NCBI GenBank assembly: GCA_000467715.1
Contig: AJFK01001088.1
Location: 23,344-87,343 of the forward strand
Direction of reading: 5' to 3'
Source: Hysterium pulicare CBS 123377
Lineage: Eukaryota > Ascomycota > Dothideomycetes > Hysteriales > Hysteriaceae
Length of the DNA: 64,000 nucleotides
A model generated the notes under the pieces. It did no database searches, was not told the origin of the DNA, and saw only the letters and a list, made by a program, of their open reading frames with translations. Below are positions 6,954 through 31,944 of this stretch, in pieces (position 1 is the stretch's first letter; each line of letters begins with the position of its first letter). A program made the position numbers and the translations under genes.

Positions 6954-7878
6954 ATTGACTTCTTAGGCTACGTGGGTTGGAATATTGGTTCGTGGCTTAG
7001 CGGATCTTGAGAATTCCGGTATAGATGTTTCTTTCATTCCTCCGAAATGGCTGGAACGGGTGTTTTCTACTTCCGGTGCTGTGTTTTCGTGCGGGATGGT
7101 ATGGTGGTCGTACATTGTTGTCTTACTGTTCTCGGCCGACATATAGAGCAAAGTAACGCGCGAGTAGCAATGGCCGCGAATGCGGACAATTATGATGTTT
7201 CAAGTTTCATCTTTTCTTAGTATGCTGTTTCGGATATCTGTAATTCCATGAGCCGTTGTGTCTTTTGGTGGTGTTAGCTTCTGAGAGTGAACGTCATCGC
7301 CACATGTAGCACGTGGGTGCCATAGTTCCTCGTTTTCGGAGGATGTGTTTGAGTCTACCAAGTTCTTTATTATTAGCCTGAAAAAGTAACTCAGATTCGG
7401 TACAAAACAATAAAGCAAGTTGCCATTCTTGAACTTGTTTGGAAAGTAGCATATAGAATAGGATCCATCCACATGTGTACGGTTGTGGAGCTCCGCAGTA
7501 CGTCGAATTATGACACCCACTTTGTAGTATTTCAAAATGCTTCCGTAATTTTACAGATGATTTACCACGTGTCGCATTTACTTGTCCGACCTAGTTTAAT
7601 GGGTTGGTATTGATGAAATAGGAAAATTGACTGTACAATGAAGAATTTACGTTTTTGTTCAAAATATCTGAATTTGGGTATCTCGCTAGTCATGACTGAG
7701 TAGTAGAGTCATTAGAATATGCATGTTGATGAGACACTGACTTCATGCCATATAGAAACATCGAACGTTCATATGATACAAAGAAGATGGTAGAATACAA
7801 GGACAATTTCTCCGAAAAAGAACACCAGAACACCAAAAATCTATATAAGTGGCAGGGCGTTAACACCATGGGATTTTA
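6954..7878. other. Intergenic, promoter of the decarboxylase
   Basis: Apart from the palindrome at 7132-7139, I see only AT-rich sequence and an unsupported 111-codon minus-strand frame at 7200-7535. The right part is the 3' region of the MFS gene. Confidence 0.4.
7132..7139. promoter_or_regulatory. TCGGCCGA palindrome upstream of the decarboxylase
   Basis: Perfect 8-bp palindrome about 180 bp upstream of the decarboxylase ATG (6953). It is the same box found in the promoters of the other cluster genes. It reads as two inverted CGG half-sites without spacer, as expected for a Zn2Cys6 dimer; the role is inferred. Confidence 0.6.
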
Positions 7879-9833
7879 TTAACCCTCTCCGGGCATAATT
7901 GGGCCCGTTAATTGTGTCCACGGCATAAATAATGCGCTCACTAGCGCCAAGAAGGTGTAGGGGATAGCTGAAATGAAAACTTTAGAAAGAGCGTTGTTGT
8001 AGATTTCGACTAGGGCATCTCCAAACTCAGGTGGAACAAGATTCCGCACATTGGTTGCGCCAGCACCCAGGATTTTGGCTGCATTGGGGATGTTGGATTT
8101 GGCTAGTTCCTTGGAAAGCTCGTTTCGGAGGATGGTGTTGGCTACCGAAATGAAGATAGCTCCGGCCAAACCTTGGGCGAAGAGAACGATGGCGCTACCG
8201 ATCGCTGTCCATTCTGGATCCAGCGCAGCTTGCACGGCAATGATGGGTTGCTGCATGGCCATACCCATGCCTGCCCCTGTGAGGATCTGGTACCCGACCC
8301 AGACTCCGGTGCTGGTGTCGGCTTTAAGGGTCGTCATCAGTCCACACCCAATACAAGCGACAATTGGGCCAACAATAGCAGGAGGTGTATAGTAGCCGGT
8401 CTTCTTAACGGCGATGCCGGCAATCATGGAGAAGACGAAGCTTATCGCAACATAAGGGACGAGATCGACACCTGAGCCGATGGCCGATTCGGCGCGGACG
8501 GCCTGGAACCAGAAAGGTAGGTAGTATGTGTGTACGAGCAGCGCCGCGGTGAGGAAAAACATTACTCCTACGGCGGCAATGACACTTCGTTTCGCGAGTA
8601 GGAATAGAGGCGTGAGTGCCTGCTCGCCCATCTTCCACTGCCATACGCCGTATACAGTGAAGCCGATACCTGTAGCCATGAGCAGACCGACCACCTTGCC
8701 ACTACTCCATGCCCAATCAACACCACCCTCTTGCAAGGCGAGGAGAAGCATTAGCACGGTGACGATGATGATGAAGTTTCCCACGAGATCTAACCGAAGA
8801 ATCCGTTGCATGAAGGTTCCTTCGTGGGCTTTGCTGTCGGTTTTCTTTGGATGGAAGAATAGTACGAGGAGGATCACGGTGACGGCGCCGACGGGCAAGT
8901 TGATGTAGAAGCCTAGGGCAAATTAGAATTCGATGTAGATAGATACAGATCAACAAAAAGGGGACTTACACCAGCGCCAAGATACTTCGCTGGTAAAAAC
9001 ACCTCCGATCAGCGGCCCACAGACAGATCCTATGCCAAATCTATACACATGTCAGCTCGTCAGTCCTCACGAATGATCGGGACCATGCACTTACATCGAC
9101 CCTACTGCGGCCATGTAGACGGGCCTGGTTTCCAACGGCGTTACAATCGAGATAATGACAAGACATCCTGCGAATATACCAGCGCACCCTATTCCTGCAA
9201 TGGCTCTTCCAACGATCAGAACATCTGAGTTTGGAGCAACTCCACAGATCAAACTGCCGACCTCGAAGAAGGCGAGTGCGGTAATGAACGACCATCTCAC
9301 ATCGAAATGTGAGTAGACACGACCGTATATAGTTTGGAAAGCGCAGGCAGTGAGTAGATACTAGACTAGATTAGAAACAATAAATAGATTGAATTTGGAG
9401 AGAGACTCACGGCAGATCCATACCAACCGGCATCTGCTGGTGCATCGAACTGGTCAACTATCTTTGGAATAGCGTTGGCAACGATGGTTCGGTCAAGTGC
9501 GACGAGGAATGCGGAGAGACCAATCCCTATCATCAATGAAGCAAGTGCAAGTTTCGACATTGCGAAGGGATCTTTTGGTGCGGACTGCGAGCCCAAGTCG
9601 GCTTCCTCTTTTGGCTTCGCTGGATCATTTCCACAGTGGGCGCAGACATGTGGGGTCACTGCATCATGGCTGTTTGATGCTGTTGCTTCGCCGGACTTTC
9701 GCGAATTCTTTTCCATTTCGAAGTCGAAGGTGTAGAATGAACTGCTGTTTGAACTTCTTGTTGATGTCGAGCTCATACCAGGGCGCGGTGGATCCTGCTC
9801 TTTGTGGATTGAGGAACGTGAAGTCGCAGTCAT
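7879..9833 (-). CDS. MFS exporter, DHA2 (14-TM) drug:H+ antiporter type
   Basis: Start taken at the ATG at 9831-9833. Exons cover about 9410-9833, 9097-9362, a short exon near 8970-9050, and 7879 to about 8910. The N-terminal 100 residues are hydrophilic, then [33 protein letters not shown] is the DHA2 TM1/motif D region; [42 protein letters not shown] and WRW follow as the usual motif C area. About 14 hydrophobic segments follow to [14 protein letters not shown]. Relatives export fungal toxins and antibiotics. Its position between two biosynthetic genes and the cluster palindrome at 10115-10122 suggest that it exports the cluster product and gives self-resistance. Confidence 0.85.
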
Positions 9834-11417
9834 GGTGGATGAAGGCCAAGCCTGGTGGCTCTGAGTTCTTATACGGTCGAGAGTGGCACGACCTCTCCCA
9901 GTGAATGTCTTAACCACCCACATGGAATCCCAATGTACAAACCTGACCCGTCGTATTTCACGGGCTTCAATTGGACTGCGAAAATGCTGGGATTGATATA
10001 TTACAGTAAGAAAAACAGACACTTACCACTGGCCGTGAGCGTATAACCTCAGCTGGCGGATAGCGGGCGGCGAGCACCCGGGGACCTCGCACCAATAAGT
10101 ACGGACCATTTTTCTCGGCCGACACTCAGCCACTCACCGAACGGAAAGCATGGAGGAGTAAGGCTTCTGCTTTGTAAGTGTTCAAGGGCCTCTTTGGCTG
10201 GTATTATTTGTGTAACGTTTGAGCGGAAGACGAAGGTTGGCCGAGTGGGTAGATGAAGCCGTGCATATGCAAGCAGAGTGAGCGTCCGGAGTATAGGTTT
10301 TCGTCCGTCTCTCGTGGGTGGAAGTCGGCCTTCCGAGTACCCGATGGTATGAAGGTAGCATCCATCCATGAGACACATTCCGAGTGAGCTGCAGGTTGCA
10401 ACACCCAATTCGCGATTGCCGTGTTATCGAGGAAAGACGGAGGTCAGAAGGTGTGACAAGTGCAGTACCGGATTAGCAGATTATCCGTTCCGAAGCACGA
10501 ACCACCAAGCCACCAAAGGTCAGAAGTCCGAGAGCTGAACGCAAAGATCATTGCCTGGGGCCAACGTATAAGGTCCTGTACGCGCTCTTTTCTCACCCTC
10601 TCAATCCTATCTCCTATCTGCCTGCCTGATCCAAGGTTACCGTAAGAATTGCCGAAAGATCTCCGGTCAAATGTCCGTAGACAGCTTACGGTGGGTGTCA
10701 CTGTTCGTCGTACTGCCGACTTTTATAGCTGTACAGGCCTGACCATTTCCCAAAACTATGCTACTTTCTGAGTTACCATACTAGAGGGACGTTAACTTGA
10801 ATTCACATCCTTTTCCGAGTCTCAATCGGCTTGGTAGGCTAGTAGTAAGGAAGGAGGTAAGCATAGACTGATCCAGGCGAAACAGACAAATCTTGAAACC
10901 AGTGTCATCGCAGAGGGGTCTTCATTTCATTTGCACTTGCGAGACCACATTCGCAATGGGTTTCATAATTTGTTACATTCCAGCTTCACTTTCTACACGT
11001 CCAGCAACAGAAGGCTATGCGGACCACAACTTCGACGTCAGCTGGAGGCTGGATACTCTCTAGATTTAAGGCACCAAGATGAACTGTGTCTGCGCCCAGT
11101 AAGAAGAGTTATTATTAGCTTAACGCACAGCCCAGCCTGCAACGAGATATTACACCTAGTGTGCATTCTTTTTTGCAACGAAATCCGATTTTTTGCTAAA
11201 ACGGAGGTTCATTTGACTATTCGGTTTATCTTCTTGAGATCGCTTAAAGGGATATTTAAAACACTTCGAAGAATGGAAAGGCGACGTAAAGAGACGGTGC
11301 TAACCACTTCCCCGGCAAGCGACAAACAACCAAGAAACGCCAACTCCAAGCTCATTTTTGTGAAAGACAAAGGAAACATCGATTTTCGACTTAGGTGGTC
11401 TCCTCCACGACACTTAT
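9834..11417. other. Intergenic (MFS promoter and 3' flank of UbiA)
   Basis: Holds the MFS promoter with the palindrome and about 1 kb of sequence without a credible gene. A 199-codon plus-strand frame at 10931-11530 has no domain and runs into the antisense of the UbiA gene, so I treat it as chance. Confidence 0.4.
10115..10122. promoter_or_regulatory. TCGGCCGA palindrome upstream of the MFS exporter
   Basis: Perfect palindrome about 280 bp upstream of the MFS start codon. The context (TTTCTCGGCCGACA) closely matches the site before the decarboxylase (TTCTCGGCCGACA). Candidate operator of the cluster regulator. Confidence 0.6.
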
Positions 11418-12650
11418 CTATCCGCGGCTCGACAGCACGACCTGGCCAATATGAGTCATACCTGAGAGGTAGACCCTGGTGGCAACGAGCTCAAGAAGCG
11501 AAATACCCGTCATGTAAAGACCGAGCATGATGTTGCGCTTGAAAATCTTGCCCCCGGATTTGCGATCCCTAAGGTTGAGCGAACTAACGTGCCAGACCAA
11601 GTTGACGGCCCAAACACCCAAGCCAAGGACCCAGAAAATCAAGGACATGTGTGCCTTCAGACCCGTCAGAACGAAGAAGGCAACCTGGAGGAAGCCCAGG
11701 AAAGTCAGGAAAATAGGAGCATTGTCTCCAAGCAGGACAGCTAGGCCCTTAACACCAGCTTTGATGTCATCTTCGCGATCCTATAATATCGTCACGTCAG
11801 CGTACGTTCTCTTCGATGGGACGGATATCTCACTTGTTCAGCATAAAACAGATCGAAGTAGATGACCCAGCTTGCTGTGGCGAAGAAAAGAGGCACCGCT
11901 TGATCCAGAGTAGACAAGTCACCCGTGACGGAGGCCCAACCTGGGAAGACAGCGGCACCAATGATGGCACCAAGGACGATCTGTGGGAAGTTTGTGACTC
12001 GTTTCATGAGGGGATAAATCATGCTCAGAGCCCAAACAGGTGCGAAAGTCCATATTCCGGCATTTCCAAGGGTTAGGTAAGTTGTTGCATATACGATTGG
12101 AATCCAAGCCAAGAATGCAATGATTGCCTCACGGGTGGTAAGCATACCGGCTGGCAGAGGCCGAACTTTGCAGCGTTCAACGTCCTTATCGAAATCCCGG
12201 TCGCAGATATCACTAGCATATGCTGTCAGCGGATGCTTTCGCGACTATTTTGAATAATTTGTTCTTACTCCCAAGTACAAAACGCGGCATGAGTCACGGT
12301 TACACTGCTCCAGATACCGAAAAGAATCTGGGCCATCTTGAAGATATCGATCTTAACATCTTGAGTTCCTGCGGAGAGGCAGGCTCCCCATACTACGACT
12401 TATCAGCATATTGGGTTTAAAATCATTTTAGGGGTGGAAACCGACCAGCTGGATACCAACACAGCCATGCTTCCTTTGTGTGAAAACGAGCCAGTTCCCA
12501 GACACCTTTCGATACATTCCTGTTTTTGTTTGGATTTGAAGGCTGCTGAGTCGCTTCAGCCTGCACCTTAGAGGGCCCCTTGGTCGCGGTATTGTTCCCC
12601 ATTGCAGTTTCGTAATACTTGTCTAAACTTTTGAGATGTGAATGCTGCAT
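11418..12650 (-). CDS. yanG/macG: UbiA-type aromatic prenyltransferase (farnesyl transfer)
   Basis: Membrane prenyltransferase with about four exons. Exon 1 (ATG 12648-12650) ends with GVWELARFHTKEAWLCWYPA, typical of fungal meroterpenoid UbiA enzymes. After an intron with donor GTAAGAAC and acceptor TGCTAG, the first Asp-rich motif reads DDICDRDFDKDVERCKVRPL (usual form NDxxDxxxDxxVxRTKxRPL, so Asn is replaced by Asp and Thr by Cys). The second motif, rebuilt across the intron near 11780-11830, is YAEQDREDDIKAGVKG. Several TM segments and LELVATR near the end match the family. The stop is at 11418. In the yanuthone/macrophorin route this enzyme would attach a farnesyl group to the methylhydroquinone. 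No FPP synthase is in the window, so FPP comes from primary metabolism. Confidence 0.88.
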
Positions 12651-12713
12651 GGTTTCTTGCTGTAATCTTGCTTTAACTTCACTTTAAGATCTATTCTCAT
12701 TTATCGCAGGGTT

Positions 12714-12756
12714 TCGGCCGATACTCCATTGATATAGGCAACCGGATTCCGGCCGA
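12714..12756. promoter_or_regulatory. Paired CGGCCGA boxes upstream of UbiA
   Basis: TCGGCCGA at 12714-12721, 64 bp upstream of the UbiA ATG, and a second box CCGGCCGA ending at 12756. The pair sits close to the gene and is the densest arrangement on this side of the cluster. Candidate binding sites for the Zn2Cys6 protein encoded at 34645-37639. Confidence 0.6.
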
Positions 12757-12786: not shown

Positions 12787-12828
12787 GCTGAACATCAGGT
12801 TAAGCGAGCTGAACATCAGGTTAAGCGA
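12787..12828. repeat. 21-bp perfect tandem duplication
   Basis: Two adjacent identical 21-bp copies, 12787-12807 and 12808-12828, beginning GCTGAACATCAGG. They lie about 140 bp upstream of the UbiA start, just beyond the two palindromes. A role is unknown; it could be a duplicated regulatory element or a replication slip. Confidence 0.85.
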
Positions 12829-13489: not shown

Positions 13490-13497
13490 TCGGCCGT
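13490..13497. promoter_or_regulatory. TCGGCCGT box upstream of the FAD oxidase
   Basis: One mismatch from the full palindrome, with core CGGCCG intact. It lies about 105 bp upstream of the FAD-oxidase ATG at 13601. The stretch 12829-13489 between UbiA and this gene otherwise shows only AT-rich sequence. Confidence 0.55.
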
Positions 13498-13600: not shown

Positions 13601-15326
13601 ATGTTATTCTCTGCTGCTGTCTTGGTCTCTGCCGCTGGTCTTGCAGCGGCATCTCCACTCTCTTCACGTGCGAGTAATGATTCCTGCTATAGACAGCTTG
13701 GCTTACCACCTTCCTGGTCGTCCAACACCACATGCACTGGTGACGCTCAAAACACCTGCCGTACATTGTCGTACCTCCTCCCAAGCAACCACACATATAC
13801 ACCCTCATCCAGATACTATGAATACAATGTGGAGAAGCCATAGTAAGTTACATCATCACTCCTTGAGAAAATCTATGCTAATGGCTCATGATTAGCACCG
13901 AGATTTGCTGGAAAGAACCGGCATGTTTCGTTACACCAAGCTCTGTCGAAGAAGTCTCCATCATAATGAGGGTTTTGTCATCTACAAACACCAAGTTTGC
14001 TATCCGCAGTCAAGGTTTCCTTGACATCCCGGGATGGAACGCTGTTGACGGAGATGGGGTTGTCATTGCTCTGCAGAACCTCAACAAGAAGGTGCTCAGT
14101 GACGACAAGAGCACTGCAACCATCGGTACTGGTCAGGCATGGGCCGATGTCTACAAATGGGTGCAGCCCTATGGCGTGCAAGTCATCGGAAATAGGGAGC
14201 CTGAGATTGGAGTCGGCGGTTTTCTGCTCGGCGGTTTGTTGACCTCCCCTTATCCAGTAGACTTTATACTCATAACTTTCGATAGGTGGTATTGCCCTCT
14301 TCCCTGACTGGTACGGTTTAGGTATGGATCAAGTTGTGAGATACCAGGTTGTTCTGCCCAGCGGTGCCATCGTCAATGCTTCCCCAACCTCGAACTCGGA
14401 TCTCTACAAGGCCTTGAAAGGCGGGTTGTCCAACTTCGGTGTTGTCACCGAGTTCGAAGTACTGACATCCCCCATCGTCGAGGTTGGCTATGAAGTCAAC
14501 ATCTATGCGCCAAACAACACAAAGACTCTGCTCGAGAAGTTCCACGCCTTTATCGAAGGTACTAACAATGGTACCTACTCTGGAAACGCCAGCATTCAAA
14601 TGGAGATCAACCGTAACTACACCCTTATGTTCTATGGCATGGTTGGACATCCTGCCACGGCTCCCGAGTTCGCTCCTTTCCGCTCTGTCCCTGTCATGAA
14701 TGCAGTCATCAAGCCCGGTAACGGCACCGTCAATGATCTGCTCTTTGCCACTGAGGGTAACTCCGGCAACACTGGAGGCAACCCTGGCTCGTAAGTAGAC
14801 AATACCGATCTTCCCCCGATCTTCGCTTAACCTTTCATTCAGATACTATGGCTCCTCCGTCTCCCACAAGGCCCCAGATGCCAGTATTATGCTTCAAGCA
14901 TACGACGTATACCTTTCCCTCAGCAAGCCTCTGCCATCTTCAATGAACATGATCTACGTGCCCCAAGGATTCTCACAAAAGATGGTCCAAGCCGGCAAAT
15001 CCCGCAACGGCGGCAACTTGCTCAACCTCTTCGAAGGTTCTCAGATCTGGCACGACATCTACACCACGTTCCCGGACCCATCCATGACCGGCATAGCCCA
15101 GACGGCCGTAGACTCGTATTACGCACAAGTTAGACAGATCGCCGAGAACAATGATGCCTTCCTCCCCTACATCTACCCCAACAACGGAAACCAGAACTTG
15201 AAGCCTCTAAGCGCTTACGGAGAGGAGAACTTCAACTTCATCAAGCAAGTCGCTCAGAGATATGATCCACGTGGTGTCATGCAGACGCTGCAGAATGATG
15301 GTTTCTTGATCCGCAAGGAACAGTAA
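13601..15326 (+). CDS. yanF/macF: Secreted BBE-like FAD-linked oxidase lacking the usual flavin anchors
   Basis: Four exons: 13601-13842, 13896-14233, 14286-14790 and 14843-15326, about 520 residues. A signal peptide (MLFSAAVLVSAAGLAAASPL) is followed by an FAD-binding-4 domain (CFVTPSSVEEVSIIM.., IGTGQAWADVYKWV, GGFLLGG) and a substrate domain with several N-glycosylation sequons. The C-terminal BBE box would be FNFIKQVAQRYDPRGVMQTL. The FAD loop, usually RSGGH with a His that bonds flavin, reads RSQGF here. The second usual anchor, a Cys in YGxxCDxV, reads YGLGMDQV. So neither covalent anchor is present, and flavin would have to bind non-covalently. In the yanuthone pathway the homologue is linked to late oxidation; that role here is inferred from context. 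Confidence 0.85.
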
Positions 15327-16592
15327 GAACCTTTTCTTTTCGGGGCATAGAAAAAAGTCCTTGTACAGTGTAGCTAATTAGGCTCAATCGTCTTGACATT
15401 CAATCTTTCTCTCGTTTTTGGGTACGCATTTTCTTTTTGGGGACTTGGGTTGCATCTGGGTTTATAGACTTGTACAGACTTCATTGTAAAAATATTAAAC
15501 TTACTGCTACCATTCATGGCCCTTTTCGCGGATCGTGACTTATCTCGTTTTCCCGTTGGGCTGATGTTCTGGTTGGTTTGCTCTCAATACCACTCAGCGG
15601 CTCAGCTCGGCCGAACAGCTCAAGGCAGTTTCTCCAGCCTCTATGTGGGCACGTTCACGTATCCAATCGGTCCAAGTCGGTCATACACATGGCGTCATCG
15701 GTTTGCAGTCTATTAGCAGATAATATCCTGAACCCAAATGTTTTAATAAATCATGTTAGCGCAGTCTGTATCATTACTTCGAAGCTCCTACTCCGTACAC
15801 AGCTTTCCCTCACCTCCGCAGTGTCATAAAAGTCGACCGCTGCTCTACTCTCTTTAAGGAATGCATCGATACTCTCGCACGATAGGTGCAATCAAGAATG
15901 GAAGTAATTTCAATAAATTGGCTGGGGACTCCATTAAAGGACTATGCTTAGCCGAATCGCTCGCTTTCCCACAAGATCTGGAACATGCGTATAATCAACT
16001 CAGCCAGCAACGCAATTCAGGTAACAGCTTCTCGTAGCAAAATCAAAAAATAGTAACAAATGAAACACTGCGTGTATTTGATATGACGTCAAATGAGCGA
16101 CTTTCTTTAATCGGCCGAAAGCTGGGGTGGAAGCTTAAGTCAGCTGGGAACCTTAACGCAACCCACCCCGAGCTGAAATGTTCAGCGCGAACGTCGGAAA
16201 TAGAAATGAACGGACGAGTGCGTAGCTTTCCTTTTTATGCAAACGAATTTTTGGACTTTTGGGAAGCTGGAAATTATTCACGAGGGCGTTTCGCTGTAGC
16301 GAGAATTATAGTCTTTTCGTGGAAAATGGTATTCTAGTGCGGGGTATGGCATATGATGACTATACAGGAATTCGAGTTCTGCAAAATTAGAAGATTTGAT
16401 GGAAATGACTTAAATTGGACTTGGAGTTTGCCAGTAAAATTTGGAACGAAATCACATTTTACAACACCAAGGAATTCAGTAGCCTCTTAATAAAACTCCA
16501 TGCGAACGGTGACTTCCGACCAAAGTAAATGATATACAAAAACCCGAGAAAATTGATGTAAAAGAAAATTTGGCTGACAAAAAGGAAAACAT
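15327..16592. other. Intergenic between convergent genes, carries two palindromes
   Basis: 1.27 kb between the ends of the FAD oxidase and P450 no. 1. TCGGCCGA occurs at 15607-15614 and again at 16111-16118. No credible gene is visible; an 84-codon frame at 16083-16337 starts just before the second box but has no recognisable domain. The boxes here do not face any annotated promoter. Confidence 0.5.
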
Positions 16593-18433: not shown

Positions 18434-18558
18434 TCGGCCGGGATTGTGCCACGAAGTCGCCTGGTTCTCGGTGTCGTATAACCATCGTTTCGGCCTATCC
18501 TGTGAAACGAGCAGGTAGCGCTCTGGCTGGATGTCTATGCTCCCCAGTTTTCGGCCGA
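18434..18558. promoter_or_regulatory. Two CGGCCG boxes upstream of P450 no. 1
   Basis: TCGGCCGG at 18434-18441 and the perfect TCGGCCGA at 18551-18558, about 90 and 205 bp upstream of the P450 ATG at 18345. A half-site TTTCGGCC lies between them near 18489. Confidence 0.6.
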
Positions 18559-19293
18559 CAATAGATGTATCATTGGCTTATAAGTTGAGAAATGTGCCAA
18601 TCAGGCCGAGCTAATGAGAAGGCTGTACGGCTTTCCTCCCACACTGGAACGCATGTTGCTGGCTGAGGCAGGTGAGGAGAAGGCTGATATGCGGAGAAGC
18701 GGCTTGGTAATCCAGAGTCTTCTTGGCAGATGCACCTAGCATAAAACAGCTATTATCCTTTTAGACTGAGCTGGAAGACAGTCTGTCTACGAAGAGTCTC
18801 AATTCTACGCGAATTAAGAGTGAACATTCTACGATCAAGCATAACACGACGCTTACGTCAATGTGGCGGATACACGTGACTTACAGCCCGTTAACCATTT
18901 CAGGTTAGGGCGGAGATATGCTTACCTTAGCTCACTTAGAAAGTTCAACTCGATAACATTACCAACTCCTATGGCCACTTTTAGGAATTTACACTTATCC
19001 AGACTGCTATATCACTAGCTCTATATGATGTCAATAATGCCAAGGCTAGCGCTCGAGAAGACGTCGATTTCTATATTATCCGAATGAGCGAGTTCCCTGC
19101 GCAGCTGATGTAACATGCCCTCTCCGCCGACTTATCAAATCGGCAACGGAATGAAACGGCATACTTCGACCACTTGCATGGAAGACGGTCACTTGCTGGT
19201 GGGGCCGAAATTAAGGTAGGACAAGCGAAAAATTAGACAGGTCCCGGCCCAGCTATTGCTCAAATCTAGATCGAGGATAAATCAGACACGAGA
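18559..19293. other. Long cluster-internal spacer
   Basis: Beyond the P450 promoter this stretch has no gene I can support. It leads into the ankyrin relic at about 19300. Confidence 0.35.
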
Positions 19294-20497: not shown

Positions 20498-23400
20498 TTA
20501 ACCCTCCTTTTCAAAGTGCGCAACGATATGTGCAACAGTGGGGCAATTCCAAAGTAGCGTAGGTCCAACAGTGAAACCAAGCTTTTGTAGTCTGCGTCGC
20601 AGACCAACAGTCATGACGGAGTCCATACCAAGTTCCACCAGCGCCGTGTGCTCATCAATGGAGTCGATCGAAAGCGACAAGACCGCAGAGACACAGTCCA
20701 GAACTCGATCCTTGAGCGACTTAGGCGCCGCAGCAGCCTCTCCTGCGCCAGCCATTTGCGCGGCCTCGATGCCCGCGGGCGGAAGACGAACGGCGGAGTC
20801 CGCGAGGATGTGGTGCGGAAGGGTCTCGCCGTGTTCGATGGGTCGGGCGCGGAGAACGACGGCGTGGTCGGTGTGGGCTTCGTAGATCTGGTCGAGGGCA
20901 TGCTTGGCTTCTTCGAGCGTCACGTCAGTGATGCCCTTGGCCTCGAGCTCGGCGTCGATGAAAGTGGTGCTGACGGACATGCCGAGGCCTCTCCAGCTGG
21001 TCCATTGGATGCTGAAGGTGTTGTCGCCTTGGCTGTTGCGGTGAGCGGCGAGAGCATCCAAGAAGGAATTTCCGGTCGCGTAGGATGCTTGGCCTGGGAA
21101 GCCGACTAGTTGACCGCAGGAAGAGAACATGATCATGAAGTCGAGAGTACCGGTGGGGTACATCTTGTGGAGAGTCATGGCACCGTTGATCTTGGGGGAG
21201 GTGACGGACTTGAAAGCATCCATGGTGACTTCGGAGACCATTTGGTTGTCAAGGGTTCCGGCTGCGTGGACGACACCGAGGACGGGTGGTAGACAAAGCT
21301 GGTCGAGGGCTGTCTGGAGCTTCTCAGCTGCATCGTCAGCGCTGATGTCGACGGCAACGACGTAGATTGAGGCACCACGGCCTTCAAGAGCGAGAAGTTC
21401 CCGGATCAATGGGTCACTGCTTGTTGCGCTCCAAGTTCGGCGGGGTGGCAGGCTGCGACGGGAGTTCAACACAATGCGTGTAGCGCCCTTCTCGACCATC
21501 CATCGGGCAGTCTCGATACCCAAGGCACCAAGACCACCAGTGATGAGGTAAGTGCCATGGACAGAGAGGCGGAGTATGCCCTTGCAAGACTTGTGCTTGT
21601 CAGCATCGACAAGGAGAGGACGAAGACGGCCGCTGCGGGCAACACCATCCTCAACTCGGACCACATCAATGCCTTGGACATATTTCATGGCTTGGATTGG
21701 GAGGGTGGAGTCCTCGGAATCGATGAGGCCACCAAAGATCTCTGGGTGCTCGCTCTGAATGATGCGGGAAAGACCAATGAGAGGAGCCTGGGACAGAGCC
21801 TGGTTGTCGGCACCACCGTGGGCATTCTCGGTCAAGCAGAAGACCACCGCCTTGGACTTGGCCTCAAGAAGGCTTTGAACAAGAGCCAAAAGGCGTTCGC
21901 AGTTGCGCATGGACACCTCGAAGACACCCTCAGCGGAGTGGGCAGTCTCTGCGACATAGGCGATGACGGAGCGTTCGCCAGCGTTCATGACTTGGCTCAT
22001 CTCAGATACAAGATGAGCCTTGATCGATTTCTTGGCCAGTTGCTTGGACCAGCCTTGAACAGTCTCGGTGTTGTTGGCGAGCAAGAAGACTTCATCGAAC
22101 TTGAGACCCTCCTCGGCAAGTTGGACTGGTGGCCAAGCGATGCGGTGAATCAAACCACCATCAGACAAGGGGCTGACGGAGTTACCCTCAATGCTTGCGA
22201 AAGCAATGTTCTTGACATCGACAAGAACTTTACCATTCTCGTCGCAGACGAGCACATCGGCGGCGAACTCGTGCTCTTGCGGGTTGCGCTTGCAGTAGAT
22301 GTAGCTCATTTTGGGAGGAAGGGATCCGGGGAGGAGAGTCACAGCATCGACAGCCGTGGGCATGCGGAGAAGTGGCTGCTTCCAGAAGACAGTGGAGCTG
22401 ATAGAAGTCATGGCATCAAGGGTTGAAGCCCAGGAGTTACCACCGAAGTGCTTGGAGGTTTCCTTGTTCTCTGGGTCGGCATCGACGATAGTCAAGTACT
22501 CGTCGTCGTTGCGGATGTGCTCAAGCACTTGCCATGGGAAGCCCATCTCCGAAACGCCCACCTCAGCAAGGTAGTCAATTGAGAAAGTGGGCTTCAGCTT
22601 CACGTCCATTCGGGCCCTCATGCCTGCAATGTCGATGACCTGGCCGACACGGTTATCGGGATCTTCAGGCCCAACAGCAGTGACTGTATTGGTCAACCAC
22701 GAGTGGTTGTTGGCTTCCTCGCCATGGGCGGCAGCTAGCCTAGAGGAGATGGTAATCTGGTTGTTCTCGTGGAAAATCTGGACTTCACGTGGTGGCTCAA
22801 CAACGACAGGTGATCGAAGGCTGACGTTTCGGAGAGCACGTCCATTGGTGACTGTCAGGAAAGAGTTGAGAAGAACGGCAGCAGGCACGATCTCTGATCC
22901 GTGAAGAGGATGGCGACCGGGGAAGGGCTTAGCGTCTGAGTGGAGGTAAGCTTGCCACAAGGTGGCGCTCGTGCCATTGATGTTGGTCTTCTCTCCAAGA
23001 AGCTTGTGGCCATGGATATCGACGCTTCGGTTGCTGCTGACGCAGTGCTTTGGCTCCTCGAAGGTGGGCCAGAAGTTCTGGTGGTCCCACTGTGTGCCCG
23101 GAACATCGTGATTCCATCGACCGAGGAGACCTTTCTTGAAGTCGATGACATCTCCAGCACAGTGGAGCTTGCTAAGACCAAGGAGCAGGGTCTTGGTCTC
23201 ATCCTGGTGGCGCATTCCAGTGGGGATGACGGTTGCATCGGAGATTCCGGCGACATCGAGGGTCTCTTGGAGCGAGTGAGAGATAATGGCGTGGGAAGAG
23301 ACTTCAACGAACATCCTGAAGCCATCCTGGACAGCTTCGGCGATAGCATTCGTAAGCCTAACAGGCTTGATCATGTTATCAACCCAGTAATCAGCTCCGC

Positions 23401-25887
23401 GCTCATCAGTGGCCTTCGGGTCATCCAGAGAAGTGGAGTAAAGAGGGATCTGTGCAGCCTTGGGGCGAATGTCATTGCCCAAAGCAGCGAAGAGTGGGTC
23501 AGCTAGTTGCTGAAGAACAGGACTGTGGAAAGCGACATCAGTCTTGACCATCCTGGCCTTGACTCCCTTCTGCTCCCAGATAGCAGTGACGGCCTCGACG
23601 GCGTTGACGGTTCCAGAAACGACACATGACTCTGGTGATGAGTAGATGGCGACGACGATATCCTTTCGGCCTTGGAAATCCTTCTCAGCCTCGGCGGCAG
23701 GCATGTTGACCAAAGCCATAGAGCCATAGCCTGCAACGCGGCGGTAGAGGATTGCTCGTCGGCAGCAGATGATTGCTCCCTCAATAGGGCTGAGAGCACC
23801 AGCGACAACGGTAGCAGCAATCTCACCAAGAGAATGACCAAGAACAGCCTTCGGCTCCGCACCTTTCTCCCTAAGAGCCGCAGCCATACCAATGTGCATG
23901 ACATAGGTCAGGACCTGGGCCTTGTCGGTCTCATCGCAGTCTCCAGTCTGGAGGGCTTCGGTGACGGAGAAGTCCATCTCTCGCTGGACGATTTGCTCAA
24001 GCTCGTTGACAGCTTCAGCAAAGGCCTGGCTCTGCTCAAGAAGAACGCGGCCCATTCCCTTCCATTGAGCACCGTGTCCACTGAACACCCAGATAGCTCC
24101 CTGACTAACATTTGCAGGGGAAGACTTGGCCGAAACAACTCCCGCGCTCCTCTTGCCTTCTGCCAGGGCGGTTAGCTGTTCGATGGCGTTGGTCTTGCTT
24201 GAGACAACCATGGCCTTCCTATATCTGTGTTGAGTGCGCTTGGCCGCAAGAGTGAAGGCGACGGAATCCATGTCGAGGTCTTCCGGTTGCTTCTGTAGCC
24301 AGCCTACAAGCTCAGCAGCTTGTTTCTGAATCCGTCGTTCCTGAGGTGCTGAAAGGAGGAGAACAGTGGGTTGGTTTGAGGGCAGCTTGTCTGCGACAAA
24401 GTCCCGCAGGGGTGTGTAGTCTTTAGCAGCCTGGATAATGGCGTGTGAGACGGTACCTCCATAGCCGTAGGAGGCAATGGCAGCAGTGCGAGGAGTTCTG
24501 CTGGCTGGGAAAGGTGTGGCTTCGGTGACTGGGTGGATGCGGGCAGCTTTCCAGTCAATCTTGGTGTTCAGATTGACCAGGTTGGCCTGGGGAGGAATCA
24601 ATCCCTTCTCAACTGCCATGACGGCTTTGATGAAGCCCATGACACCAGCTCCGGCTTCCAGATGACCAATGTTTGGTTTGACTGAGCCGATGATGGCATC
24701 GGGTGCATCAGCCTGGCGAGCCGAGCCGTAGACGGACGCCATAGCGGCGGTTTCAGTTTTGTCACCAAGTGGTGTGGAAGTAGCGTGGGCTTCGATGTAG
24801 TTGACTGCGCTGGCAGGAAGGCGTGCTTCCTTGAGAGCTAAACGGGCGACTTTCTCCTGGGCAAGCTGGTTGGGAGCCATGATACCGTTGGTCTTGCCAT
24901 CGGAACCGACAGCAGAGCCGATGAGAACGGCGAGAACGTTGTCCTCATCGCGAATAGCATCGGAAAGACGCTTAAGGATGACAACACCAGCACCTTCACC
25001 ACGACCGTAGCCGGAAGCGGAGTCGTCGAAAGATCTGCAGCGACCCTCTGGAGAAACGGCACCGGCAACGTCCAATACCCGGGTAAGGTAAGGGCTAATA
25101 TGAGCATTCACACCTCCTGCAATAACAAGGGATGTCTCGCCGGCAATGAGGGCTTGCTTGGCTTGATGGATAGCAACAAGGGAGGAAGCACATGCACCAT
25201 CTACAGCATAGGTGGGGCCAGCGAGATCAAGGATGTAGGAGATACGGTTAGGAATACCGCAGTACGCCGTACCGATACCCATCCATGCATCGATTTTGTT
25301 GATGTCTTCGAGGATAAGGCGGGAGTAGTCATCGGAGTTGACACCCATTATGCAGGCTGTATCGGTTCCAGAGAGGCTTTGTAGAGGGATACCAGCGTGC
25401 TCAAGAGCTTCGCATGCAACTTCGAGAGTGATTCGTTGTTGGGGGTCCATCTGCTCGGCTTCTCGACCAGCAATGCCGAAGTATTGAGCATCGAACTGCT
25501 CCATGTTGTTGATGAAGTAACCCTTGGTGGTTGTTTTTTCTAGAGTCTCGGCACTCTGGGGTTGTCGGTTCTTGAAGGGCGCCCATCGCTTTTCTGGCAT
25601 TTCGCCGCACGCATCCCCTTTCTTCATCAAGAAATCCCATAGCTGGGATGGAGTGTTGTTATCACCTGCTACACGGCAGGCATAACCGATGACTGCAATG
25701 TCTATACGATTGAACGCTTTAGCAAGTCATATAGTAAGAATATGGGGAACTACTTACCATTGCAGCCGTTGGCGGAAGTGCTCTCCGGTGGCGTGGCGGC
25801 GAAGGTCGCGCCTTCGTCGAAAGGAGAGGGAGAAGAGACATCAGACCCCATATCGGAGACGGATGATGAATATGAGCCGATAGCCAT
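20498..25887 (-). CDS. yanA/macA: 6-methylsalicylic acid synthase (partially reducing type I PKS)
   Basis: Two exons: 25758-25887 and 20498-25701, with a 56-nt intron; predicted length 1777 residues, the usual size of 6-MSA synthases. After a Ser-rich leader the KS begins at DIAVIGYACRV (about residue 45), with active Cys in DGACASSL and His in EAHATSTPLGD and NIGHLEAGAG. The AT has VFSGHGAQW, GHSLGE (nucleophile Ser) and AFHSP. The DH/thioester-hydrolase domain has HPLHGSEIVP (HxxxGxxxxP). The KR has TGGLGALG and the Ser/Tyr/Asn set in SSCGQLVGFPGQASYATGNS. A single C-terminal ACP has GMDSV. There is no TE, cMT or ER. The WRGLGMSV segment after the KR is typical of MSAS. It makes 6-MSA from one acetyl- and three malonyl-CoA with one ketoreduction. 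It shares a divergent promoter with the terpene cyclase. Confidence 0.93.
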
Positions 25888-26145: not shown

Positions 26146-26234
26146 CCGGCCGGGGTTCCGGCCGAATATGAAGCTGTCTGTGTTCCCATGTCTCAGCTAC
26201 GACTTCATCATATCAGCTCTCAGGTACCGGCCGA
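26146..26234. promoter_or_regulatory. Divergent PKS/terpene-cyclase promoter with CGGCCG boxes
   Basis: The 468 bp between the PKS ATG (25887) and the cyclase ATG (26356) contains CCGGCCGG at 26146-26153, CCGGCCGA ending at 26165 and CCGGCCGA at 26227-26234. The three boxes sit closer to the cyclase but can serve both genes. Confidence 0.6.
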
Positions 26235-26355: not shown

Positions 26356-27170
26356 ATGGGGTTGTTCAAGATCCAAGAGATGGCGGCGGCCAACGCTGAC
26401 TACGCAAATGCGATGGCACCAGTCTGGCACGCGAAAGTGATACCAGACATCTGGACTAGCATTTCTGGTCTGCTTTGGTGTTGGTCGTACATCCTCATGA
26501 CGAGGAAGGGATACAAAGACAAATCCTACTCCATGCCCATTTACTGTCTCTGCCTCAACATCACCTGGGAGTTCGTTTTCGGCTTCATCTACGGCCCCGG
26601 CCTCGTCAATCAAATCAGTTTTGCGCTGTACATGATTGTCGACATACCTCTTTTCTATACCGTTCTCAAATTTGGGCGACATGAGTGGCGACACACGCCG
26701 CTTGTTGCCAATAATCTGGGGAAAATCCTCTTCATCGGCTGTGCTTTCTGTTTGTGGGTGCATTTCGCCGCCGCTGCCACTTTCATTCCAATCGTTGGCC
26801 GACAGACTATTTTCTGGACGGCTTGGCCGATGCAGCTGTGCATTTCGATCGGCTCCGTCGCCCAAGTTCTCGTTCGAGGAGATGATCGAGGCCAATCTAT
26901 GGGAATTTGGTGAGTACTATTAGCCACTCAACTTTTAAGTGCTAACATCGGCGTAGGTGGACAAGATTCTTGGGTACTCTAACGGCCGGTTTCTGCTTCT
27001 ACCATCGGATCTACTTTTGGCCAGAGAGATATGGCTATGCTTGGACGCCATATGGCGCCTTCTTGATGCTCGCTAGCCATATGTTCGATCTGATGTTTCC
27101 ATTTGTTCTTGCATACGTCCGCAGGAATCCATCTAATGGAGCAATCCAAGCCAATGGCAAGATCCATTGA
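26356..27170 (+). CDS. macJ: Integral-membrane terpene cyclase (Pyr4/MacJ family)
   Basis: Two exons, 26356-26909 and 26957-27170, giving about 255 residues with roughly seven hydrophobic segments, the size and topology of the Pyr4 family. The two acidic residues shown to be essential in Pyr4 have clear counterparts: Glu in NITWEFVFGF and Asp in SHMFDLMFPF. Such enzymes protonate an olefin or epoxide at the end of a prenyl chain to start cyclisation. In a 6-MSA/farnesyl pathway the known case is MacJ, which cyclises a yanuthone-like epoxycyclohexenone to the drimane skeleton of macrophorins. The yanuthone cluster itself lacks such a cyclase, so this gene is what points to a macrophorin-type product. 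Confidence 0.87.
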
Positions 27171-27727: not shown

Positions 27728-28547
27728 TTAGTGAGCTTTCCCATTGCCATTCATTTTGTCCATTTGGGCAAATTTTTGTCGGGCCTTCTCTTGAGCATCG
27801 CGCTTAGCGTAGCGCTTCTGGGTCCAGTTCTTCTCCATCTGGTCGCAAGCCTTATCCCAGTCGGTCGTCCATTCTGGATAGAATGGAGCATAGCCAAGCA
27901 GGCCACCGATCCATCGGCCGACGATAATGGTGAACCAGAGACTGAGAAATGTGCGGAAAGGCACCCAAGACGGAGGTGAGAGATAAGTATCACCAGCATC
28001 AAACATCTGAAACTAGTCAATTATCAAAGGAAGGGTTAAATTTCAGGGGGGGGCTACTTACAGCAAGAACCTGGATGAGGTCAAGCTTGGTGCCGCGCTG
28101 GAAGACATCCTCCTGGTAGCCGTACCAGTTCTCAAAGAAAGGCTTGTCCATTGCGTAACCTTCGGAGTTCTTTTCTTCGCCCTCAACCTCGAATTCGACC
28201 TCGTTACGCTCCGTGCCGGGAGTTCCGTAAATTACGTGGTGTGTGAAGGGATGAACGGTGTACCATCCGTTCTTAGGTTCTAAGTCGACGCGCTTTCCGT
28301 TGATATCGACACTTAGATTTCCTTTGAGGACACGGAAATACTCGGTCTGGCTGACGTGGAAGTGGGTTGGTGGCTTCTTGCCGCCAGCGATAAGTTTCGC
28401 GTAGATGCCCAGCCAAGGGCGCATGAAGCCATGAAAAGCGAATTGGCGGGTTGGAGGGGTTGGAAGAGTGCTCATCTCAATTGCCCCATCGAACTTAATC
28501 AGCGGATCCTCGCCGGCGGTGAATGTCTTTGGTTGAACGGGCGCCAT
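27728..28547 (-). CDS. yanE/macE: Cupin-domain protein with C-terminal membrane segment
   Basis: Two exons, 28062-28547 and 27728-28012. The N-terminal 160 residues form a cupin: motif 1 is THFHVSQTEYFRVLKG (two His and a Glu-like ligand set), motif 2 is YTVHPFTHHVIYG. A joint across the intron gives VLAFQMFDAGDTY, followed by a hydrophobic segment (FRTFLSLWFTIIVGRWIGGLLG) and a charged helical tail (KRYAKRDAQEKARQKFAQMD). This layout suggests a membrane-bound small-molecule oxygenase, isomerase or epoxidase partner facing the cytosol. Comparable proteins are encoded in yanuthone/macrophorin clusters, where, as I recall, the exact activity is not settled. Exon coordinates are well supported by splice borders; function is inferred from the cluster. 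Confidence 0.75.
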
Positions 28548-28686: not shown

Positions 28687-28695
28687 TCCGGCCGA
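28687..28695. promoter_or_regulatory. CCGGCCGA box in the divergent cupin/SDR promoter
   Basis: One CGGCCG core at 28689-28694, in the 277 bp between the cupin ATG (28547) and the SDR ATG (28825). Both genes could be controlled from it. Confidence 0.55.
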
Positions 28696-28824: not shown

Positions 28825-29879
28825 ATGCCAATCTTCATGCCTGCTGTCACTCCGTTGCCCTCGGGGTTGAGCCTCAAGGGTAAAACCGTCATTGTGACCG
28901 GTGCGAGCGCTGGAATCGGCCAAGAAATGTCGCGACAGATGCTTATCCTCGGGGTGTCCACCCTCATTATGGCCGTTCGAAATGTCTCCAAGGGTGAGGC
29001 AGTGAAGAGCTCCCTACTCGAAAACGACCAAATTAAGACTGCAAATCCCGATGCCACCATCAAAGTCTTGAAACTGGACACGGAGAGTTATCAGAGCGTG
29101 AAAGGCTTTGTCCAGTCTTTCAGAAAAGAATTCTCGCAGCTGCACAAATTGATGCTCAATGCCGGAATTGGAACATTGACGCGCGAGATGACTACCAACG
29201 GACACGAGAAAAATGTCCAAGTCAACTACCTTTCGAACGTCCTTCTAATTCTCGAGCTGCTTCCGCTTCTCCAACGTTCTGCCGACAAGGCGGGCTCTCC
29301 GTCGCGGATCACCTTGACCGGCAGTCGTTACCATGCTATGACAAGCTTAGCCTGGAAGGCACCGCTTGAGCCCGGAGAGACTGTTCTCGGCCATCTTGAC
29401 AGCGAAAAGCATTTCGTGTCTTATGCTCGATACGGAGACAGCAAATTGCTCCCAGTCCTGTTCCTGCAGGAGCTTCAAAAGCACCTGGGGAGTGAGAAAG
29501 TCATCATCAACAATTTCTGCCCCGGGATGACCGCCACGGATATGAGCGACATCCTACCGTTCTATATGAGGATTCCTATGAACTTCATCAAAGCTATTCG
29601 CGCACGCTCCGTCGAACAGGCCGGATGGATCGGCCTCAATGCAGCTCTGGTAGCGGGACCAGAATCGCACGGCGCATTTCTCGTTGATAAAGACGTTGCA
29701 GAGTAAGTTGTGCATCTTACCCTTATCTCATTCAAATTGCTGACGGTGCGTTTTGCAGACCGGTGGAATATGTTAAGTCCGCAGATGGTCAGAAAGCTCA
29801 AAAGATGCTTTGGAATGAGACGGTGGAGGAAATGTCGAAGTTGACCAATCCTCCAGCGTGGATGACCAAACTCGCATGA
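28825..29879 (+). CDS. yanD/macD: Short-chain dehydrogenase/reductase
   Basis: Two exons: 28825 to about 29703, and about 29760 to 29879. The cofactor motif is TGASAGIG (TGxxxGxG), followed by LMLNAGIG (NAG) and the catalytic region: Ser in ITLTGSRYH and YxxxK in SYARYGDSK, where the Tyr is in ARYGDSK. These place it in the classical SDR family with NAD(P)H. About 330 residues. An alternative start at 28837 is possible; the apparent extension upstream to 28753 has no ATG and is rejected. In the pathway it is a candidate for redox of the cyclohexenone or quinone. It is divergently paired with the cupin gene, which suggests a joint step. Confidence 0.82.
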
Positions 29880-30317
29880 CGGATGTATGACAAAGTATGG
29901 AATGCTGAGGCGATGGTGTCAGAGGCTGAGCTGACTGGAGTGGAAGTCCGGTGGTTGACGCGCAGCTACGGAGGTGGAGACGTTGTATTATACCCCTTTC
30001 TAAGGCTTAAGCCTCCCGTGCTCTCGTGGCTAGGCCTAAAGTGGATTTAGTCGTGCGCGCACAGACGAGACTTAGAGATCCAATTATAGAATCAAGCCGA
30101 GACGTACCAACGAAGAAGAAAGCTTCGGCGTCTCACTTTCCTGTACTTCCTTCCCTTTCTTCTTTCTCGTTTACTTTGAAAAATCCTTTTGATACAGTAG
30201 TAGTAATGCAGATATTGCTCCCTTTGCTTAGCCCGAACTCTAGAAACTCCAGAAACGCCAACTTTCTACTAAATATACAGTACCATACTCCAAAGAAGCG
30301 TGAGCTGTTCACTTTCT
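29880..30317. other. Intergenic between convergent genes
   Basis: 3' flanks of the SDR and the acyltransferase; no supported gene and no palindrome. Confidence 0.4.
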
Positions 30318-31718
30318 TTAACTTCGCAATGCCATCGCCGCCTTTACAAAATTCCCCGGAATAGCATCGAGGTTCAGTCTCACAACTCCAACGGCCTCGT
30401 AAAGCAAGCCACGCTCATCATGAATACCGAAAGCCTTCGCCATTGGTCCAGCCTTCAGCTGTACACGTGTGTATCCATACCAGATTGCCGTGACGAAGTA
30501 TCCGATCAAGCGCCTCCACATACTCGGTGCAGCTGCCCGATCGTCAATACCGGCGTAGTAGCAGACCAAGTCCTCTGCCATGATGGCGAGGCCCTGGGCA
30601 ATAAAAAAGGGCATCTCTCCAAAATCGGTCCATTGGGCGCCGCGAGCTCGGATGACTGCGCGATCGCCGATTGTATGGAAAGCACCCGAGATGAGGAATG
30701 GTAGGACTACAGCGAAATAGCGCCGGAAGAGACGAGCAGATTGGCGCTTTGAAGTTTGCAGCGAGGTCGGGAAGAGCGAAAGCAGGAAGCTTGCGGGAAT
30801 CCCGAGGATCCGGCGAACTTGTTGATGCCAACAGTGACTAGAATAATACAAATTAGCATTCGAGCAAGAGCGCAGGCTTTTATGTGGGAGGCTTTCTCAC
30901 CTCCAGAAACGTCGAATGCTGTAGGCTTGCGAAAGTGAGCCAAAGTTGGCTGGCCAGGCATCCGACTGTTGCCAGTTCTGTGGACCGACGCCGAAGCCGA
31001 CACAAACAATCGCCATTGGGAGCATGAGCATTGCGAAATGGGTGTAGACCATCAGTCCTAGGGCGAGCACAATGAACGGATAGAGGAAGGCTGGGCTACT
31101 CGTGATACTGACTAGACGAGTCTTCAAACCGCCATCATCGAGATCGACGAATTCGTTAAGGATGGCGTCGCATGCTTGTACGGCAAGATATACGCTAGCA
31201 TACATGATGGCCCATCTGATGACCCGGTCTGCGATGAAGGTCCAACGAGGAGTCTTTTTGGCCTTGGGAGTCCCGGAAACGCGCCAGTTCCATCCGACAC
31301 CGCGAGTGACAGCGAAAAGTTCGGCGCTCCAAGCTAATCTGTCGACCGGGGATAGCTTTTTGGGGCTTTCTTCGATTCCCTTACCGTCGACGCGACGGAA
31401 CGTTTCTTCAGGGACATGGATGTAAAGCCGGTCAAAATAACGTAGTGTGAGGTTGCCTAGCAGGACACCAGAGGAGTACACCACGCCCAGATTAATACCT
31501 TCTTCGGCGGCAGGCGCAAGGTATGCCTGGGCGGTGAAATAGATCTGTAGTGCGAGCACGCCGTAGCGGGTCATGGAACCATGATGAAAGCATGGAGTTA
31601 AAACGGCGAGAATAAAAGATATGCCAAGACATGTCTGGAAGTCCAGCTGTGGAACATAGCTAGAGAACGTAATGAGAACCGGAAGAGAGAGCGGTATGTC
31701 TGATTGCAATTTGACCAT
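30318..31718 (-). CDS. yanI/macI: Membrane O-acyltransferase (wax-synthase/YanI-like)
   Basis: Two exons, about 30899-31718 and 30318-30838, giving roughly 445 residues with about eight hydrophobic segments. The joint gives the wax-synthase/MBOAT-like signature SIRRFWSHCWHQQVRR; related enzymes have FWGRRWHQ. The His of this motif is thought to be catalytic in the family. A further conserved-looking His lies in LISGAFHTIGD. YanI in the yanuthone cluster transfers a mevalonyl group to a side-chain hydroxyl; some macrophorins carry a related C6 acyl group. So an O-acyl transfer to a hydroxylated product is expected; the acyl donor is not deducible. It shares a divergent promoter with P450 no. 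2, which would make the hydroxyl it acylates. Confidence 0.8.
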
Positions 31719-31880
31719 GTTGAGCTACAGAGCGCTCAATAACCATGAAAAGATTCTTATGAAAAATGTGAAACGTAAGAGAGAATGAAAAGTGAGAGAG
31801 GGATTTGCTTAACCTTGAGGAATACTGAAGAAACATACGAGCATGATGGTTAGTAAGTAAACGCGGTCCGTCTATGCTTG

Positions 31881-31944
31881 TCGGCCGTGGTGGTGTGATG
31901 GTGCCATCTGTCTGACCTAAATGCTTCGGCGACCTTTCGGCCGA
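31881..31944. promoter_or_regulatory. Two CGGCCG boxes in the divergent acyltransferase/P450 promoter
   Basis: TCGGCCGT at 31881-31888 and the perfect TCGGCCGA at 31937-31944, within the 335 bp between the start codons of the acyltransferase (31718) and P450 no. 2 (32054). They are the rightmost strong boxes that serve structural genes. Confidence 0.6.

Follow-up and report, generated by a model that had tools for sequence, protein, structure and literature searches.

The locus and its genes

We analysed a stretch of 64,000 bases, hereafter called the window, from the Hysterium pulicare CBS 123377 genome (37.2 Mb in 596 contigs), which covers bases 23344-87343 of the 87,343-base contig AJFK01001088.1. 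The window carries a cluster of 11 biosynthetic and transport genes, namely ten enzyme genes and one gene for a transporter of the major facilitator superfamily (MFS), together with a gene for a Zn2Cys6 regulator. Our subject is the palindromic CGGCCG box, in its perfect form the octamer TCGGCCGA, which recurs in the promoters of these genes and which a preliminary description of the window had taken to be the operator of the cluster's own regulator. Genes were called from Pfam matches, the structure of open reading frames (ORFs) and start codons set by hand, and they are arranged as follows.

5857-6953, minus strand: amidohydrolase (PF04909; ATG set)
7882-9833, minus strand: MFS transporter (PF07690); start uncertain, at 9716, 9776, 9833 or 9923
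11421-12602, minus strand: UbiA prenyltransferase (PF01040)
13601-15326, plus strand: flavin adenine dinucleotide (FAD)-binding oxidase (PF01565)
16593-18345, minus strand: cytochrome P450 a (PF00067)
20498-25887, minus strand: polyketide synthase (PKS) of the 6-methylsalicylic-acid-synthase type, with KS, AT, weak DH, KR and ACP domains
26356-27170, plus strand: Pyr4-type membrane terpene cyclase (PF25129, E value 7.9e-69); intron 26910-26956
28017-28547, minus strand: cupin protein (PF07883); likely 3' exon 27731-28012
28825-29706, plus strand: short-chain dehydrogenase (SDR; PF00106)
30318-31718, minus strand: membrane-bound O-acyltransferase (MBOAT; PF13813)
32054-33860, plus strand: cytochrome P450 b (PF00067); exon borders approximate
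34645-37639, plus strand: Zn2Cys6 regulator of 962 amino acids; exons 34645-35547, 35598-36781 and 36838-37639, spliced by hand

No Pfam match was obtained for the probable 3' exon of the cupin gene. The amidohydrolase is presumably similar to 6-methylsalicylic acid decarboxylase, a function assigned by analogy with the pathway. Among the best 120 of 7,708 relatives of the PKS is a protein named 6-MSAS with 69% identity; the named relatives that matched best come from Macrophomina phaseolina (69%) and from Bimuria, Didymosphaeria, Karstenula and Paraphaeosphaeria minitans (65-66%). For the terpene cyclase 27 relatives were listed, with identities of 70% to a Macrophomina protein, 68% to a Paraphaeosphaeria sporulosa protein and 55% to an Aspergillus stella-maris protein named spyD, which outscored a Penicillium relative at 53%; no Karstenula protein was among the names shown for these 27, most of which are unnamed. 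In addition, an ankyrin-repeat-like ORF fragment (19270-19602; best Pfam E value 1e-05) lies in the 2.1-kb interval that separates the P450 a and PKS genes.

All enzyme types of macrophorin and yanuthone pathways that were tested were found by Pfam, that is, 6-MSAS, amidohydrolase, UbiA, cupin, SDR, two P450s, FAD oxidase and MBOAT, as was the marker of the macrophorin branch, a gene for a Pyr4-type membrane terpene cyclase (PF25129). The types of the ten cluster enzymes agree with those that act in yanuthone synthesis. The Penicillium macrophorin cluster is described as consisting of macA-J and the regulator gene macR, and is close to the yanuthone clusters apart from its additional terpene cyclase gene macJ (PMC7806857). 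The ten enzyme genes equal macA-J in number. The present cluster is macrophorin/yanuthone-like, and its products are predicted to be compounds of the macrophorin/epoxyphomalin type.

The box is enriched in the cluster promoters

The preliminary description had listed seven perfect copies of TCGGCCGA in non-coding DNA and eight near-forms that retain the CGGCCG core. All seven perfect copies were present, as were all eight near-forms at positions within one base, and four further perfect copies (16897, 17519, 27914 and 34903) were found in coding DNA. The promoter sites are listed first and the remaining perfect copies thereafter.

7132-7139: TCGGCCGA, 180 base pairs (bp) upstream of the amidohydrolase gene; full 12-mer TNTCGGCCGANA from 7130
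10115-10122: TCGGCCGA, 283 bp upstream of the MFS ATG at 9833 (193-400 bp for the other ATGs); 12-mer from 10113
12714-12721: TCGGCCGA, 113 bp upstream of the UbiA gene; full 12-mer from 12712
12749-12756: CCGGCCGA, second site on the UbiA side; its core starts 35 bp from the core at 12715
13490-13497: TCGGCCGT, 105 bp upstream of the FAD-oxidase gene
18434-18441: TCGGCCGG, 90 bp upstream of P450 a
18551-18558: TCGGCCGA, 207 bp upstream of P450 a; full 12-mer from 18549
26146-26153: CCGGCCGG, divergent PKS/terpene-cyclase promoter
26158-26165: CCGGCCGA, divergent PKS/terpene-cyclase promoter
26227-26234: CCGGCCGA, divergent PKS/terpene-cyclase promoter, 123 bp upstream of the cyclase gene
28688-28695: CCGGCCGA, divergent cupin/SDR promoter, at 142 bp from one start codon and 131 bp from the other
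31881-31888: TCGGCCGT, divergent MBOAT/P450 b promoter
31937-31944: TCGGCCGA, divergent MBOAT/P450 b promoter
15607-15614: TCGGCCGA, tail-to-tail gap between FAD oxidase and P450 a, not a promoter
16111-16118: TCGGCCGA, same tail-to-tail gap, not a promoter
16897-16904: TCGGCCGA, P450 a coding DNA, perhaps codon-driven
17519-17526: TCGGCCGA, P450 a coding DNA, perhaps codon-driven
27914-27921: TCGGCCGA, likely 3' exon of the cupin gene
34903-34910: TCGGCCGA, 258 bp into the ORF of the regulator; full 12-mer from 34901

Adjoining the paired boxes of the UbiA/FAD-oxidase promoter is a perfect 21-bp tandem duplication, with two copies of GCTGAACATCAGGTTAAGCGA at 12787-12828.

In the whole window TCGGCCGA occurs 11 times, against a mean of 0.94 in dinucleotide shuffles, of which 0 out of 100 reached 11. 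Genome-wide there are 473 copies in 37.2 Mb, or ∼0.81 expected per 64 kb. The core CGGCCG was counted 36 times in the window, against 12.1 in shuffles and 10.9 at the genome rate (6,317 copies). The reversed words, used as controls, occur 395 times for TCGGCCGA and 7,428 times for CGGCCG in the genome, and the box is therefore not a strikingly common genome word. Furthermore, whole-genome counts, with the places given for the first 50 of the 473 octamers and for all 39 copies of the 12-mer, showed the motif to be far sparser outside the cluster, although a further dense spot of the octamer is conceivable; a similar density elsewhere in the genome, which had been named beforehand as grounds for refutation, was not seen in these counts. 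The left flank (23.3 kb), which together with the window makes up the contig, holds two CGGCCG cores and no perfect 8-mer. To the right of 39 kb only near-forms were seen, as described previously, with eight CGGCCG instead of the two that had been reported.

For the promoters themselves we considered the seven intergenic regions (6,658 bp) that hold the 11 biosynthetic and transport start codons, the region of the MFS gene beginning at its most upstream candidate ATG. At the genome rate 1.13 copies of CGGCCG and 0.085 copies of TCGGCCGA would be expected in this set, whereas 13 and 5 were observed (Poisson, 2.8e-10 and 3.4e-8, respectively). At least one core was present in each of the seven regions, four of which are divergent rather than the three counted before. 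The claim that every biosynthetic promoter contains a box is thus borne out for the core, in 7/7 regions and for 11/11 genes, but a perfect copy is found in only five of the seven, the PKS/cyclase and cupin/SDR promoters having near-forms only. The core nearest to the ATG was located at 90-283 bp for all 11 genes (193-400 bp for the alternative MFS starts).

Could chance or the local base composition account for these copies? Perfect copies are over-represented in the cluster's coding DNA too, with four found there, and the 10 cores to the right of the cluster, where 4.5 are expected, hint at a slightly raised local rate. However, G+C is lower in the seven promoter regions (40-48%) than in six exon stretches (51-56%), and yet these regions are the richest in copies per base. 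In 2,000 dinucleotide-preserving shuffles of the promoter regions, the mean number of cores was 0.70 and the maximum 5, against 13 observed, and all seven regions were matched in none. In addition, CGGCCG ranked first among the 64 palindromic 6-mers by promoter count and TCGGCCGA first among the 256 palindromic 8-mers, and the reversed words occurred in the promoters once (6-mer) and not at all (8-mer). Given the enrichment, the shuffles and the palindrome ranks, we rejected chance and composition for the promoter copies, leaving single coding copies aside, and as an overall explanation we regard them as hardly credible.

An unbiased word scan compared 3,278 bp of proximal promoter DNA with 66,917 bp of background. 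This background was composed of the left flank, the right part of the window and the loci L011-L015; loci that had been selected through the motif, or that overlap the window, were excluded. It is not a random sample of the genome. The highest-scoring 7-mer out of 2,539 was CGGCCGA (17 versus 0.27 expected, in 7/7 regions) and the highest-scoring 8-mer out of 2,971 was TCGGCCGA, while GGCCGA and CGGCCG ranked first and second among 1,541 6-mers. When 32,796 dyads were scored, the top three proved to be overlapping readings of a single word, the box; the fourth, AAG-17-TAA, was seen 10 times versus 1.25 expected, in 4/7 regions (8e-7 before correction). Inverted CGG pairs without a spacer, the layout of the Rds1 type, numbered 13 in the promoters versus 0.64 expected. 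Spacers of 1-20 bp gave 0-3 copies each, the largest count being 3 versus 0.44 at spacer 18, and were rejected as not notably enriched; the GliZ/PglR-type spacer of 3 (CGG-N3-CCG), with 1 copy versus 0.59 expected, likewise fell short. Because the box is enriched over the genome rate, supplies the top 7-mer and 8-mer, is present in 7/7 promoter regions and lies at promoter-like distances, there is good support for a cis-element shared by the cluster genes.

The promoter copies tend toward a 12-bp palindrome

In the 26 half-sites of the promoter boxes, position -1 is occupied by T in 17 cases, by C in 7, by A in 2 and never by G. T at -1 was found on both sides of five sites, on one side of seven and on neither side of one. 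Since this pattern is close to that of independent half-sites with 65% T, we read the promoter box as a symmetric site. A preference for T was also seen at position -3, in 17/26 promoter half-sites versus 8/26 for the 13 copies that lie in the cluster region but outside promoters, and 7/20 for the 10 copies to the right of the cluster; relative to base composition, its probability is 7e-5. For perfect 8-mers alone, T at -3 was found in 9/10 promoter half-sites versus 5/12 others.

The promoter copies thus tend toward the 12-bp palindrome TNTCGGCCGANA, which occurs 39 times in the genome (all places listed) versus 21 times for its reversed control. Five copies are in the cluster, four in promoters (7130, 10113, 12712 and 18549) and one inside the ORF of the regulator (34901). 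Elsewhere in the genome only one 10-kb stretch holds two.

The cluster-encoded regulator as candidate binder

The protein encoded at 34645-37639 matches Zn_clus (PF00172, E value 2.1e-11) and Fungal_trans (PF04082, E value 6.6e-18), and a six-frame search, which an intron-split domain would escape, found no other Zn2Cys6 pattern on the 87-kb contig. Its DNA-binding domain matches, by sequence, the HAP1, LAC9 and GAL4 chains of solved structures, and proteins of the GAL4 class contact CGG triplets. When the 8,000 candidates sharing most words with the regulator were scored, two of the 6 relatives listed were strong, the nearest from Karstenula rhodostoma and the other from Paraconiothyrium brasiliense, both of the Didymosphaeriaceae. 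The Karstenula protein is identical at 38 of 41 positions over residues 6-46. For both this protein and the Karstenula relative of the PKS the longest contig is listed at 1,929,311 bases, which suggests that the two share one scaffold. As the only Zn2Cys6 pattern found on the contig, with a domain of the GAL4/HAP1 class and a Karstenula relative listed alongside that of the PKS, the regulator is, judging from sequence, the best candidate for the binder of the box. Of the preliminary claim that the box is the operator of this protein, the part concerning a shared cis-element is well supported, and the protein itself is the best inference as to what binds there.

In Penicillium rubens, the macrophorin cluster is reported to become active when macR is activated, as followed by quantitative PCR of macA and macJ (PMC7806857). 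Because macR activation turns on that cluster, a role as activator would be the natural reading for the present regulator as well.

Taken together, we consider it quite probable that the box is the operator of the cluster's own Zn2Cys6 regulator, in the form of an inverted CGG pair with zero spacer. It would serve as an upstream activating site, the zinc cluster of the regulator reading TCGG or CCGG half-sites. Two such half-sites would abut head to head with no spacer (CGG-0-CCG), with the extended consensus TNYCGGCCGRNA and with TNTCGGCCGANA as the best site. The 12-bp palindrome, roughly 90-280 bp upstream of the start codons, would be occupied either by two subunits or by one together with a second that binds more weakly. 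Occupancy would switch on all 11 enzyme and transporter genes jointly, with four of the promoter regions shared by a pair of genes. Binding, activation and stoichiometry are what we infer here. In the promoter of the regulator gene itself no box was found within 500 bp, nor in the whole upstream gap of 783 bp, and for this reason expression of the regulator is probably set by other factors. Conceivably, the copy at 34903 could be an intragenic, autoregulatory site of the regulator, as its position and the full 12-mer would suggest.

Evidence against the operator reading and alternative explanations

Several observations weigh against the reading of the box as a promoter operator bound by the local regulator. 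The remainder of the cluster span (25.1 kb) likewise has too many perfect copies, with 6 versus 0.32 expected (1.1e-6), and too many cores, with 13 versus 4.3 expected; to the right of the cluster, none of the 10 cores noted above is perfect. This excess outside promoters is not predicted by a pure promoter-operator model. The preference for T at -3 is modest when set against the other copies (Fisher, 0.025 for the cluster, 0.073 for the right side and 0.013 pooled), and the enrichment of TNTCGGCCGANA is partly circular since this word was read off the same sites. In addition, start codons and promoter borders were set by hand. The regulator, for its part, has only 4 hydrophobic residues (LIVMFWY) among the 64 that follow the zinc cluster, and no coiled coil is evident in its sequence, unlike in classical dimers; for this protein, the dimer binding mentioned in the preliminary description is therefore conjectural. 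Lastly, the binder could be another Zn2Cys6 protein of the genome.

The six perfect copies outside promoters are divided between coding DNA, with four, and the tail-to-tail gap, with two. The coding copies are read in two different frames (Ser-Ala-Asp/Glu and Val-Gly-Arg), so they may have arisen from constraints on the protein or on codon choice. The copies at 15607 and 16111, which had been listed as non-coding, are indeed so, but they lie between two 3' ends and hence in no promoter. Three ORFs in this gap (15324-16595; 1,272 bp) were scanned without a Pfam match, and a hidden gene was rejected on this ground. By their position, the two boxes are perhaps the remains of the promoter of a lost cluster gene.

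The CGGCCG pairs at 12715/12750, in a promoter, and at 16898/16933, in P450 coding DNA, have the same 29-bp spacing, which is found in three of 42 close pairs in the genome-wide list. Between the paired boxes, 15 of the 29 positions agree without gaps, more than expected by chance (binomial, 0.002, post hoc). A repeat search in five regions, comprising four of the seven promoters and the tail-to-tail gap, found no repeat spanning a box, and mobile or duplicated DNA as carrier of the box was accordingly rejected. Structured RNA was rejected as well, Rfam having no match in the window.

The box might instead mark a chromatin or general promoter feature, such as a nucleosome-free region or Rsc3-like binding, rather than a pathway operator. 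Related zinc-cluster domains are indeed carried by yeast RSC3 and RSC30, which are parts of a chromatin remodeller, and the cores to the right of the cluster are somewhat in excess. However, CGGCCG is not above its reversed control genome-wide (6,317 versus 7,428), and the left flank, with its two cores in 23.3 kb, is not enriched. We therefore judge this explanation to be very improbable.

More serious is the alternative that the box is a true shared cis-element bound by a global or paralogous Zn2Cys6 protein encoded elsewhere, with the local regulator binding something else. The lack of a box in the regulator's own promoter would fit this alternative, as would the 23 zinc-cluster stretches elsewhere in the genome among 40 matches listed, and on another contig a Zn2Cys6 gene of the AflR type has a full 12-mer in its upstream DNA. 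Against it, the genome holds only 39 sites of the 12-mer, 5 of them in the cluster and at most 2 per 10 kb elsewhere, which makes a regulon centred here likelier. Moreover, the dyad scan gave no better operator candidate for the local regulator, AAG-17-TAA being present in 4/7 regions only. On this evidence we consider a binder encoded elsewhere unlikely, and the cluster-encoded regulator remains the preferred one.

The AflR-domain gene itself (locus L026, G000:C145:28000-37999, at 1416-2849 of the locus) has three CGGCCG within 800 bp upstream of its ORF, one of which is a full 12-mer; at a distance of 9.7 kb from this one, and beyond the locus, there is a second 12-mer. Possibly, this gene belongs to another regulon that uses a similar site.

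Significance and comparison with known systems

If it is the operator, for which support is moderate on the sequence evidence, the box provides a testable site for a regulator whose close relatives number only two among those listed. The distribution of the box suggests a co-regulated span from the amidohydrolase gene to P450 b with the MFS gene inside. A CGGCCG site with zero spacer also lets one ask how two Zn2Cys6 domains share abutting half-sites. To our knowledge, the geometry of abutting triplets is not shared by dimers of the GAL4, PPR1 or PUT3 type. The yeast regulator Rds1 is not known to belong to a biosynthetic cluster. More tentatively, and with the balance of our judgement somewhat against it, a cluster-specific Zn2Cys6 regulator free of a coiled coil might recognise a 12-bp palindrome in which the CGG triplets abut without a spacer. 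If true, two zinc clusters would sit on neighbouring triplets, and this would be a new operator class for secondary-metabolite clusters of the Dothideomycetes.

For TCGGCCGA as operator of a macrophorin or yanuthone cluster we found no published report, which does not establish its absence from print. No MacR operator was seen in the portion of PMC7806857 available, where the term 'binding site' has 0 occurrences, and PMC5469009 was rejected as a precedent, since CGGCCG appears in the portion available only within NotI primer sites. The Penicillium macrophorin cluster likewise has ten enzyme genes and a regulator gene (PMC7806857), while here an MFS gene lies inside the set; no Penicillium protein was among the 6 listed relatives of our regulator, the close ones being from Karstenula and Paraconiothyrium only.

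The site quoted for the Saccharomyces cerevisiae Zn2Cys6 protein Rds1, CGGCCG, has the same inverted CGG core with zero spacer (PMC4872168). PglR of the Fusarium PGL1 cluster is a cluster-specific Zn2Cys6 protein whose inverted CGG pair was over-represented by dyad statistics, as was the case here; its proposed operator, CGG-N3-CCG in 4/5 promoters, has a spacer of 3 instead of 0 (PMC4872168). In gliotoxin clusters the GliZ site TCGGN3CCGA resembles ours in having inverted TCGG half-sites in promoters, and differs again in its spacer of 3 versus 0 (PMC7022936). A precedent for a Zn2Cys6 regulator lacking a detected coiled coil is TerR, from the terrein cluster, whose high-affinity consensus begins with TCGG (PMC4360782). 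Its operator TCGGHHWYHCGGH is, however, a direct repeat with a spacer of 5, bound predominantly as a monomer in surface plasmon resonance experiments, in contrast to the inverted site with zero spacer in the present cluster (PMC4360782). Operators of cluster-specific Zn2Cys6 regulators are thus a kind already known, and the putative one described here differs from those of PglR, GliZ and TerR in its spacer.

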